NCBI RefSeq assembly: GCF_003610695.1
Contig: NZ_RAQH01000004.1
Location: forward strand, 186,001 to 250,000
Direction: 5' to 3'
DNA length: 64,000 nucleotides
Source of the DNA: Epilithonimonas arachidiradicis
GTDB taxonomy: Bacteria; Bacteroidota; Bacteroidia; Flavobacteriales; Weeksellaceae
Shown: positions 2,779 through 37,899 of the stretch, in pieces
Layout of the letters: each line of letters opens with the position of its first letter
Position numbering within the stretch: position 1 is the stretch's first letter
Translations under genes and position numbers: made by a program
Notes under the pieces: generated by a model
What the model saw: the letters and a program-made list of their open reading frames with translations, nothing else
What the model was told of the DNA's origin: nothing
Database searches by the model: none

Positions 2779-3423
2779 ATGACTCACATAGAAAATATTA
2801 AAAAATTATTCTCCCGCGACTTCGTAGAAAATCCATTGTTGGAAACCTACGAAGTTGGGAAAATTCACATTTCATCAGGAAAAATTGTAGCCAGTGATGC
2901 TTTGATTTCGCCCGATCATTCAGCTTTTAATCAAGAATTTCCGAAAGGTGATTTTCAGGTTTTGGTTCATAAAGAAAGAGAATCCAACTGTATTGCTTAT
3001 GCAGAAATCGTTTTTGATAAAAATCAATTGGCTGAAAATTGGTCTTTGGCTCTTTGTGATAATCAAAATATTAATGATCTGAAAGAAGAAGAAATCTACG
3101 GTTATCTTGTAGAGTCCGGAATGGGGACTTTTATGGATAAGGAAGCTCAAATTTCTCTGAATACTTTAGAGCAAAACCTTTTCCACAAAAAAGGAGCTGA
3201 CTTTATGGGGATCTATGAAGAGTTTTTCCATTCTCATTTCTTTGATGAAAACGGAGCAATCGACCAGTTCGCAGTTCTCAAACCTTATGATAACAAACCG
3301 GAAAATATTGTTGCATTCGAAACGGGTTATGGTGAAGGATTTTATGCAACGTATATAGGTTATTCTAAAGATAATCAGCCAGTTAAATTAATTTCCGAAT
3401 TTATAGAAATAGGAAACGATTAA
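2779..3423 (+). CDS. DUF4241 domain protein
   Basis: A 214-residue soluble protein with the conserved blocks I associate with DUF4241: SGKIVASDALISP (residues 33-45), SGMGTFMDKE (113-122) and ETGYGEGFYATYIGY (181-195). There is no signal peptide or membrane segment. The molecular function of this family is not established to my knowledge; members are common near immunity-type genes, but nothing here shows that role. It lies 78 bases after valS on the same strand with no visible terminator between, so it may be co-transcribed. Confidence 0.8.
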   Translation: MTHIENIKKLFSRDFVENPLLETYEVGKIHISSGKIVASDALISPDHSAFNQEFPKGDFQVLVHKERESNCIAYAEIVFDKNQLAENWSLALCDNQNINDLKEEEIYGYLVESGMGTFMDKEAQISLNTLEQNLFHKKGADFMGIYEEFFHSHFFDENGAIDQFAVLKPYDNKPENIVAFETGYGEGFYATYIGYSKDNQPVKLISEFIEIGND

Positions 3424-5982: not shown

Positions 5983-6576
5983 ATGATAATCATTTTAATT
6001 CTCATTTTTCTGATAATTGCTCTGTTTTTGTCCGGCATCCGGTCAGAAAAGTGGAATCTTTGGAGCAGGATTGTCAGAGCTGTGATTACGATTTCTGCGG
6101 CCACTTATTTTACATTTTGGTTTGTAGAGAGAAGCTTATCGCAGTTTCTGGAAAATTCTTTGGCTGTTCAGGTGGTTAATTATTTGCCGCAGCCTGTAGA
6201 TTTCTACATTATCAGGATTCAGGAAGGCAGTGAGGTTCAAAAATTTAGCTCCAAACACGTTGGCCAGATTCGGCCCGAGCATTTCCGAATCGAATATCTT
6301 AATATGCAGAAATCCAATGAGTTTTGGGTCGTTGGATATATCGGGAAAGACAAACTCGTCTATTTTTCTCAGGTCGCTGTTCCCAACAAAAACGAAGATC
6401 AAATTGTAGAGGTCAGAAACTACATCAATCACAGTCTCAAATTATCCGCTGTAGCAACAGAAAAAGTTGCTGAACTCAAGTACGACAATATCAAGCTCAG
6501 CATTTGGGTGACATTGGATTTACTATTAATTTTCCTCAATTCAGTTTTGCTTTTCAGAAGCAGCAAAAAACATTAA
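5983..6576 (+). CDS. Small membrane protein of unknown function
   Basis: I do not recognise this 197-residue protein. It has a hydrophobic N-terminal helix (residues 2-19), a second helix (about 28-50), a soluble middle of about 110 residues, and a third helix near the C-terminus (about 168-190). The soluble part would face the periplasm if the first two helices form a hairpin. It starts 28 bases after the HD gene but has its own promoter box immediately upstream. No enzymatic motif is visible. Confidence 0.75.
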   Translation: MIIILILIFLIIALFLSGIRSEKWNLWSRIVRAVITISAATYFTFWFVERSLSQFLENSLAVQVVNYLPQPVDFYIIRIQEGSEVQKFSSKHVGQIRPEHFRIEYLNMQKSNEFWVVGYIGKDKLVYFSQVAVPNKNEDQIVEVRNYINHSLKLSAVATEKVAELKYDNIKLSIWVTLDLLLIFLNSVLLFRSSKKH

Positions 6577-6584
6577 AATAATAA

Positions 6585-6665
6585 TTTGGGCGCCTTTATC
6601 CGCCCTCCGTTCCCGCTTTTTTCTTTTTTTGAAAAAAAGAAAAAGAGCTCCACTCAGGTCGGGGC
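6585..6665 (-). repeat. Dispersed intergenic element, copy C
   Basis: Read on the minus strand it begins GCCCCGACCTGAGTGG and ends GGCGGATAAAGGCGCCC. The middle is a long hairpin of T/C against A/G runs (6616-6645). Its 3' end aligns with that of the element at 37791-37899 (23 of 30 bases by eye) and its 5' end over 13 of 19 bases. It lies in the 258-base gap before the aldehyde dehydrogenase gene. Confidence 0.6.
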
Positions 6666-6834
6666 GTGTGCAATTCTTTGTTTTAAAATTACTTCTAAAA
6701 TTGCATTGCATTATTCATAAAAATTAATGACAAAATTTAAATAAAATATCAAAATAGATTTTGAGATTCTAATCAACTTTGTACATTTAGCCACGCAAAA
6801 ATTGGTACAATTACTGCAACCCTAATCAATTAAA

Positions 6835-8160: not shown

Positions 8161-8191
8161 AAAACCCGCTCAAATTATTTTGAACGGGTTT
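8161..8191 (+). terminator. Terminator of the aldehyde dehydrogenase gene
   Basis: AAACCCG and CGGGTTT arms with further pairing (CTCAA / TTGA) enclose a short AT loop. The hairpin begins 24 bases after the stop. Confidence 0.7.
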
Positions 8192-8228
8192 CTATTTGTT
8201 GACAAATCTTTTTTTTATGTCGAATCCC

Positions 8229-8340
8229 ATAGCCCCGATAGTAGCGGTTACCCCGCAGTAGAGTGGGAGAGTTGGAGGGTTTGGTGTTGCCAAGCGTTGG
8301 AACGAGGAGTATGAGTGGATAGCGGGATTAAGCTCCTGAA
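8229..8340 (+). repeat. Dispersed intergenic element, copy A1
   Basis: It starts ATAGCCCCGATAGTAGCGG and ends AGCGGGATTAAGCTCC. Its first 25 bases match the inverted copy at 11762-11899 at 19 positions; the middle differs completely. It sits after the aldehyde dehydrogenase terminator, in the same orientation as that gene, and touches the 3' end of the convergent transpeptidase gene. Confidence 0.6.
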
Positions 8341-10757: not shown

Positions 10758-11678
10758 CTAAGCATTTTTAAGTTGTTGAAACAGTTCTTTTTGTCTGTCG
10801 GTTAGATTAGTTGGGATTTTCACATTATAGGTTACATAAAGATCTCCAAATTGTCCTTCCTGTTTGTAAACCGGGAAACCTTTGCCTTTCAGTCTTACGG
10901 TTGTACCGTTCTGCGTTTCAGGTTTTACTTTGAGATTGACAGAACCGTCCAAAGTTTGAATGGTGATGTCGTCGCCCAAGATAGCTGTATAGAGGTCGAT
11001 GTCCAGAGAAGTTCTGAGGTTATCGCCTTCTCGTTTAAAATCTTTGTCTTCCGTGATATTGAATGTGATATAAAGGTCGCCATTCGGGCCACCATTGATA
11101 CCGGGATTGCCGTGACCTTTTAGCTTGATTTGCTGCCCGTCATAGACACCTGCCGGAATCGTGATGCGCACTTTCTTGCCGTTGATGTCAAAAGTCTGCT
11201 GATGGGTTTTGGCTGCATCTCTCAAACCAAGTGTCAACTCTGCCGAAACATCCTGACCCTTGAACTTGCCGCTGGCACTGCCTCTCGAGCTTCGCCCAAA
11301 ACCGCCGCCAGCACCGCCAAACATCGATTGGAAAAAGTCGGAAAAATCCTCACCTTCGCCAAAATCCGCTCCGGAAAATCCGCCACCACCAAAGTTTCCG
11401 GAATATTGCTGTTGTTGTCTCTGCTGTTGTTGAGCACGTTCATATTCTTCACCGTGTTTCCAGTGTTCGCCGTATTTGTCATACTTAGCGCGGTTTTCCG
11501 GATTGCTCAGTACCTCATTCGCCTCATTGATTTCCTTGAATTTTTTTTCTGCTTCCTTGTCATTCGGGTTCATGTCCGGATGATATTTCCGCGCCAGCTT
11601 TCTGTAGGCTTTTTTGATGTCGTCCGCAGACGCTTTTTTTTCAAGCCCCAGAATTTTATAATAGTCTATAAATGCCAT
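10758..11678 (-). CDS. cbpA: DnaJ/CbpA-type co-chaperone
   Basis: A type II J-domain protein (306 residues) that stimulates DnaK. The J domain covers residues 4-70 with HPD at 33-35. A Gln- and Gly/Phe-rich linker (about 82-135) follows, then the two beta-barrel substrate domains (about 140-300) with [19 protein letters not shown]. The zinc-finger CxxCxGxG repeats of true DnaJ are absent, so CbpA is the better name. It leads the operon with cbpM and ypdA. A repeat element fills the 286 bases upstream. Confidence 0.9.
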
Positions 11679-11761: not shown

Positions 11762-11899
11762 TTTAGGAGCATTCGGTTGCAGCTTCTGTTCATCTTTTCC
11801 ACCCGTTTTTCGCTGTATCTTTTGGTCGGCGCTCGGTCGGCTCCGCTTCGCTCCGCCGCCTCTCCCTAGCCAAAGGATGCCGCTGCAACCGGGGCTATG
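11762..11899 (-). repeat. Dispersed intergenic element, copy A2
   Basis: Read on the minus strand it starts CATAGCCCCGGTTGCAGCGG and ends GAATGCTCC followed by an A run. The middle is unusually GC-rich for this genome and holds nested inverted repeats around GGCTCCGCTTCGC. It lies downstream of the lipocalin gene in that gene's orientation, as copy A1 does after the aldehyde dehydrogenase. Confidence 0.6.
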
Positions 11900-11964
11900 T
11901 TGATGTTCGGTTTTCCTGACAGCATAGTAATCTTGTATCCTGCGCCTTGCACCTTCAACCGTAT

Positions 11965-37331: not shown

Positions 37332-37780
37332 TGAAAATGTACACAAGCAAAAGAGATTGGATTTATGGTTCTTTATTTTTAGGAATCAGCCTGCTTTTTG
37401 TTTGCATTGTTATTGCATCTTATTTTGATACGCCATTTTCAGGATGGCTGGTATTGTCATTGATTTTGTTAGTTGTAAATTCGGTTTTACTAATTAGTTT
37501 TTTCTTTATTAAAATCAGGATTGACGGCGAAGAACTGGTTGTAAATGTCATCTTTGATATTTTTAGAGTCAATATATTTAAAATTACAAAAATCCGAATC
37601 GGGGAAACAATGTGGAGTGGATTCAACAAATGTGGAACTTCGGTCGGCGGTTTAATTATCTTTTCGAAATATAAAAACGATCTTTACATCACACCCAAAA
37701 ATCTGGATGAATTTCTAAAAGAATTACTGGAAATCAATAGTCACATTGTGATAGATGATGTAAGGAAAGACAAAGGTTGA
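37331..37780 (+). CDS. Membrane protein with bacterial PH-like domain
   Basis: A 149-residue protein with two adjacent hydrophobic helices (about residues 11-32 and 41-61) followed by a soluble beta-rich part: KIRIDGEELVVNVIF, then FKITKIRIGET and LIIFSKYKNDLYITPKN. This fits the two-helix plus PH-like layout of YcxB/DUF-type proteins of unknown function. Start codon overlap (TAATG) couples it to pcm. A dispersed repeat follows immediately. Confidence 0.72.
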   Translation: MKMYTSKRDWIYGSLFLGISLLFVCIVIASYFDTPFSGWLVLSLILLVVNSVLLISFFFIKIRIDGEELVVNVIFDIFRVNIFKITKIRIGETMWSGFNKCGTSVGGLIIFSKYKNDLYITPKNLDEFLKELLEINSHIVIDDVRKDKG

Positions 37781-37790
37781 ACTTTGCGAA

Positions 37791-37899
37791 GCTGCAGTCC
37801 GACTTGAACGGAAATCCTTTTTTGCTTGTTCTCAAGTTCTATTGAATTTGAAAAATTTCTGCAAAAAAGATTGGGAGTGGAAGGCGGAAATAGCTGCCC
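37791..37899 (+). repeat. Dispersed intergenic element, copy B
   Basis: It starts GCTGCAGTCCGACTTGAACG and ends GGCGGAAATAGCTGCCC. Near the middle, AATCCTTTTTTGC pairs with GCAAAAAAGATT. Both ends align with the inverted element at 6585-6665. It fills the gap before mazG. Confidence 0.6.

Follow-up and report, generated by a model that had tools for sequence, protein, structure and literature searches.

Dispersed Flavo-1 hairpins with exchangeable caps in Epilithonimonas arachidiradicis and their possible action as folded single-stranded DNA

The Flavo-1 RNA motif was catalogued in 2010 (Weinberg 2010, PMC2864571) and has been unexplained since. Rfam lists it as RF01705 under the type sRNA, and it has been grouped with the abundant sRNA families of bacteria (PMC9029176); should it prove to be a DNA element, the sRNA annotation of Bacteroidota would be inflated. 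Among DNA elements, REPs and REPINs with their IS200/IS605-related RAYT transposases share several features with Flavo-1, being high-copy, extragenic, imperfect, and non-autonomous hairpins that fit single-stranded DNA (ssDNA) processing. Flavo-1 differs from them in its size (about 65 to 140 nt), its exchangeable cap, and the foot of its hairpin, which reads TAGCCCCG, GCAGCCCG, GCGCCCCG, or GCGTAAGGG and lacks the GT[AG]G tetranucleotide, and also in that no Y1 transposase gene was found in the genome studied here. Integron attC sites resemble Flavo-1 in having a fold whose terminal part varies. The attC strands that recombine lie, in sedentary integrons, mainly on the leading-strand template, and excision is thereby limited (PMC5371416); the folding strand of Flavo-1 is likewise mostly on that template in one complete congener. 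Flavo-1 copies seem to form no cassette arrays, however, and are single, dispersed, and without a recurrent neighbor gene. In the literature searched, no description was found of either cap exchange or a replication-strand bias in Flavo-1.

Flavo-1 copies in the window, the genome, and the family

The original prediction placed two copies of a dispersed element, conserved at its ends and variable in between, at 8229 to 8340 (+) and 11762 to 11899 (−) of the window, the whole 64,000-nt stretch of DNA analyzed here, and knew no name for it. Both segments lie at these positions, the description of ends and middle was borne out, and both are copies of Flavo-1 (RF01705), a structured motif of unexplained function. 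Copy 1 matched the family at 8227 to 8333 (+) with 34.8 bits (E 5.8e-6 on 301 nt) and copy 2 at 11795 to 11900 (−) with 38.8 bits (E 4.6e-7 on 301 nt), each match covering positions 1 to 76 of the covariance model, that is, its full length. Because neither score reaches the gathering score of 42 bits, Rfam scanning of the window at default settings gives no match. This is a shortfall of subtype, because the fold is the same and intermediate subtypes exist, and the cut-off is an annotation threshold and not a defining trait. The window copies share with the Rfam family its consensus, paired positions, strand, and taxonomic range (Bacteroidetes) and differ from it in being sub-threshold subtypes. 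The shared start, first counted as 19 of 25 bases, is real, but with A8229 aligned to A11898 (minus strand) as the first position the agreement is 18 of 25, which becomes 19 of 26 once the preceding C is included. The pattern AGCCCCGNTNGNAGCGG occurs in the window without mismatch only at these two copies, and with up to three mismatches it was found 6 times versus 0.9 expected. The GCTCC end is present in one group of subtypes, but other subtypes end in GCTGCC or GGCGCC.

Copy 1 has an A-type stem and a TTACCCC cap module and lies between two convergent genes, an aldehyde dehydrogenase gene (PF00171; 6835 to 8136, +) and an L,D-transpeptidase gene (YkuD, PF03734; 8342 to 9376, −). It does follow the aldehyde dehydrogenase gene, as had been described, by about 90 nt past the stop, but the stop of the convergent gene is much nearer, at 8 nt from the Rfam match. 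A terminator-like hairpin, read from the sequence, is found between the two genes at 8162 to 8192, and between it and copy 1 is a left arm (8201 to 8228, +) with two GACNAATC-like words (GACAAATC and GTCGAATCC). GACNAAT was present within the left 60 nt of 20 of 90 copies and on the right side of 4 of 90. Copy 2 is also A-type and carries a GCATCC cap module and an extra 3′ insertion ending in ATGCTCC; it neighbors a lipocalin gene (PF08212; 11965 to 12507, −), with a DnaJ-family chaperone gene (10758 to 11678, −) downstream. Two D-type copies bring the number in the window to four: copy 3 at 6593 to 6670 (−), directly past the stop of a gene at 5983 to 6576, and copy 4 at 37786 to 37895 (+). 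Copy 4 occupies the entire gap between two co-directional genes, the upstream one ending at 37780, and about 19 nt separate its end from the start codon (37915) of a MazG-like gene.

In the genome (3.65 Mb in 15 contigs), 61 copies score above the Rfam cut-off and about 95 have an E value below 0.01. The true number is probably larger, because our own structural descriptor added three copies to Rfam's 13 on contig C4, so that the model missed 3 of 16 in 360 kb; the descriptor gave no match in shuffled C4 and three in a shuffled stretch of G006, the complete congener. The suggestion that similar sequences recur in Chryseobacterium-type genomes also held, with Flavo-1 present in 128 of the 149 genomes of the family.

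Base pairing, caps, and the folding strand

Flavo-1 subtypes are distinguished by stem and cap. Inward from the outer helix, which takes the form AGC/GCT, GCAGC/GCTGC, or GCGCC/GGCGC, a helix of three pairs is separated by an A.G mismatch from one of two pairs, and a 3x3 GNA/GGA loop separates the latter from another two pairs; beyond a second G-rich loop, three more pairs and a C.A mismatch lead to the cap. Both the outer helix and the C.A mismatch were identified by eye and are uncounted below. In copy 1, for example, the core comprises C8235-G8325, C8236-G8324, G8237-C8323, the A8238.G8322 mismatch, T8239-A8321, A8240-T8320, a GTA/GGA loop, G8244.T8316, and C8245-G8315, and the cap extends from about 8248 to 8312. 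All seven core pairs are intact in both copy 1 and copy 2.

The structure is real. Among 84 segmented copies (five mis-segmented ones were omitted and one was unsegmentable), 577 of 588 core cells were Watson-Crick pairs, 8 were G-T, 1 was A-C, and 2 were mismatches, compared to at most 396 Watson-Crick cells when the right arms were shuffled among copies. The 84 copies represent 52 distinct cores, and the 588 cells are not independent events, because the copies are paralogues and were found with a model of the same fold. The compensatory changes proposed as a check on an RNA structure are strong and wholesale. Helix 1 occurs as CCG/CGG, GGG/CCC, CTG/CAG, GCG/CGC, CGG/CCG, or GTG/CAC, helix 2 as TT/AA, TA/TA, CT/AG, or TG/CA, and helix 3 as GC/GC, AC/GT, or GT/AC. 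The A.G mismatch was retained in 79 copies and swapped to G.A in 4.

The Rfam strand is the folding strand, because the conserved A.G mismatches are purine-purine on this strand and G-T cells exceed A-C cells 8 to 1 (p 0.04, a small count). With DNA parameters, the mean probability of the seven core pairs was 0.46 on the Rfam strand versus 0.18 on its complement (p 2e-15), but no difference between strands was seen with RNA parameters (0.50 and 0.52). Folding of the two window copies alone was uninformative. The predicted folds fit ssDNA, and they would fit RNA as well, because roughly half of the core pairs are likewise recovered under RNA energy rules.

A few further features of the hairpins were apparent. 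C-type copies (GCGTAAGGGAT...GCGAGGGATACGC; L041, L042, L046, L048, and others) and A-type copies ending in TTGTTGCTCC (L034, L044, and L045) seem to form another hairpin on their 3′ side, and the outer helix would then close a three-way junction; this hairpin is absent from the Rfam model. Many caps (L025, L027, L030, L032, and the copy at C4:44886) are a GTCATTGCGA...TCGCAATGAC palindrome that elsewhere is an independent repeat, and on C4, where TCATTGCGA occurs 12 times, 8 of these occurrences fall outside Flavo-1. The TTCCGTAGGAA palindrome has few occurrences on C4 and in G006, most of them near Flavo-1, and was considered as a fixed second module; this was dropped because only 3 of 90 copies of this genome have one within 250 nt. 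Two non-orthologous copies, L092 (G000:C6:5433-5516) and L123 (G119, at the aldehyde dehydrogenase/L,D-transpeptidase site), share a TTCGAC..GCTCAG repeat that is placed identically in the stem (GATATAG^CCCTTCGAC...ACTAGCGGG), which would stem either from the copying of a single composite or from two site-specific insertions.

Site histories and replication orientation

Empty sites at orthologous loci, which had been named as a sign of mobility, were found. At the copy 1 site, the element is present in 15 genomes of the genus and missing in six, and a further relative (L307, transpeptidase 94% identical) also has an empty site. At empty sites, the left arm and the hairpin of copy 1 are missing together. 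In L307, the terminator-like hairpin lies a few bases past the stop codon, and since the two nearly adjoin, the inserted block includes the left arm. Filled copies at this site carry three kinds of cap (TTACCCC, GCATCC, and AAATCC), and one has the further TTCGAC..GCTCAG repeat within its stem. This distribution suggests an old insertion followed by several losses and several cap changes, as judged from a tree of two genes only, which may contain recombination. In two genomes (G099 and G032), the interval between the aldehyde dehydrogenase and L,D-transpeptidase genes, which elsewhere holds Flavo-1 or nothing, contains a gene for a membrane-protein-like product of 624 residues. The 2-kb insert was considered as an autonomous Flavo-1 copy and rejected, as this is an ordinary gene. 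Unlike autonomous insertion sequences, the elements themselves, at about 65 to 140 nt, have no internal transposase gene, and copy 1 had no blastn match to indicate plasmid or phage carriage.

The same pattern of gain, loss, and change is found at other sites. The copy 2 site is filled with differing caps in many species and decayed in G006, G115, G103, and G049. Between contig C4 and G006, about a dozen sites are shared and about five are private. Six of the shared sites are unchanged, four differ in cap, subtype, or by disruption, and two are decayed in one partner. In eight aligned pairs, the core differs at 1 to 2 of 41 nt (8 in one pair, mostly via an indel), and the caps are either retained at 83 to 100% identity or, in two pairs, wholly replaced at 45 to 49%; another two sites hold copies of differing subtype or disrupted copies. 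Thus, at a site shared by congeners, the stem hardly changes, whereas replacement in place affects the cap or the entire subtype.

The strand of the copies also follows replication in G006. Its 110 copies switch strand at 0.784 and 2.756 Mb, positions that bound half of the chromosome, with 36 plus and 14 minus copies inside and 16 plus and 44 minus copies outside; none of 500 permutations was equally strong. Independent sampling of GC skew placed its flips at about 0.85 and 2.70 Mb, near the strand switches. When replichores were defined by skew, the folding strand was the lagging-strand sequence (leading-strand template) in 77 of 110 copies (p 3e-5). Among the 72 copies with gene context, the effect persisted after gene direction was taken into account (coefficient −0.97, interval −1.63 to −0.48), and all 12 copies in divergent gaps agreed with replication orientation. 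The bias is firm in one genome only, G006, because in a second congener (G122) the partition was significant (p 0.004) but agreement was weak (75 of 125, p 0.03) with a noisy sampled skew, and a genome of another genus (G106) showed no partition.

Competing explanations, gene context, and partner genes

The original prediction left the choice between a structured RNA and a small mobile element open; the mobile-like DNA element fits better, but the structure is real and an RNA role keeps some probability. We see an even chance that Flavo-1 is a non-autonomous, structure-constrained dispersed DNA repeat that acts as folded ssDNA. Each copy is an imperfect hairpin built of an outer helix, a rod in which 2- to 3-bp helices alternate with symmetric internal loops rich in G.A, and a replaceable cap. 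Constraint would act on the self-folded Rfam strand, most plausibly as ssDNA exposed in replication or recombination, and a putative structure-specific protein would recognize the rod. New insertions would be rare, and more commonly a copy would be overwritten by another, or its cap swapped, at an existing site, presumably through gene conversion or template switching between copies. Retention would be highest for copies whose folding strand does not serve as the lagging-strand template, as for the attC sites of sedentary integrons (PMC5371416). The long retention of sites across the genus could reflect a host function. It is a tentative possibility that Flavobacteriia have an undescribed system of recombination or repair for which Flavo-1 copies, as folded ssDNA, are the recognition sites, with caps exchanged in place, the rod recognized, and the family misfiled as RNA in Rfam. 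If this is true, the exchangeable caps and the replication-linked orientation would indicate an unrecognized ssDNA-hairpin process.

Alternatively, Flavo-1 may be an RNA element, i.e., a structured 3′ or 5′ untranslated region or a processed sRNA that acts in mRNA stability or termination and whose RNA fold is selected, which we consider unlikely. The strong covariation, the G-T tolerance on one strand, and the Rfam class agree with such a role, and so does the position of many copies in 3′ or 5′ untranslated regions, such as the one in the MazG leader. The 3′ end of the element commonly abuts the stop of a gene running toward it, 27 of 50 such right-hand convergent neighbors ending within 23 nt, and copy 1 is of this kind, sitting between the L,D-transpeptidase stop and the terminator-like hairpin. 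Past most of the closest stops, however, the transcribed strand would be the complement of the folding strand. The gene context of 90 copies, analyzed with 1.5-kb flanks and a simple ORF caller, is mixed, with 56 in co-directional gaps (34 opposed to the genes and 22 along them), 18 in divergent gaps, and 16 in convergent gaps. Because of this mixture, a position after a gene stop in the gene's orientation, as noted for the first two copies, holds for those two but is no rule. Furthermore, in G006 the strand is predicted by replication orientation independently of genes, and about 95 copies per genome with freely exchanged caps suit a repeat better. In the transcriptome of Flavobacterium psychrophilum, Flavo-1 matches are sense or antisense indistinctly and many are outside transcribed regions (PMC9723704). 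The form of an intrinsic terminator, a GC-rich hairpin directly followed by a T run, was not seen by eye; the sequence after the hairpin reads CTCCTAAAA or CTGCCCAAA on the forward strand and typically CTATGGGATT or similar on the reverse strand.

It is also conceivable, but improbable, that the copies are old immobile sites homogenized by homologous recombination and replication template switching, with no enzyme and no function. Sites shared genus-wide, in-place replacement, and decayed copies all agree with this, and no recurrent neighbor gene family was found beside the copies that could serve as a partner. Self-templating of the hairpin, however, would erase the A.G mismatch, yet nearly all copies keep it. 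Moreover, only 3 of the 588 core cells are broken (two mismatches and one A-C), fewer than expected without selection, although the model used to find the copies favors intact cores. Very doubtful as well is a tie between the repeat and a Y1/RAYT transposase of subclass 2.6. This subclass was a promising lead, since atypical structures are said to flank its genes. Its repeats are said to lack the GT[AG]G tag too (PMC6006769); hairpin DNA with a replication-strand bias would also suit ssDNA transposition. Y1 genes are found in 102 of the 149 genomes of the family, in 96 of the 128 with Flavo-1 versus 6 of the 21 without, a comparison that ignores phylogeny, kinship, and genome size. The partnership was rejected since none of 47 Y1 loci of relatives, including those for YIHQNP (subclass 2.6-like) proteins, has a Flavo-1 copy within 1.5 kb, and Y1 genes are lacking not only here but also in G115, which has many copies.

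A different family was seen near these transposase genes. Weak, below-cut-off matches to Acido-Lenti-1 (RF01687) lie beside three of 20 Y1 loci (L101 at 1965 to 2010, L110 at 3134 to 3178, and L118 at 1938 to 1982), and this "RNA" family may be a RAYT-associated REP.
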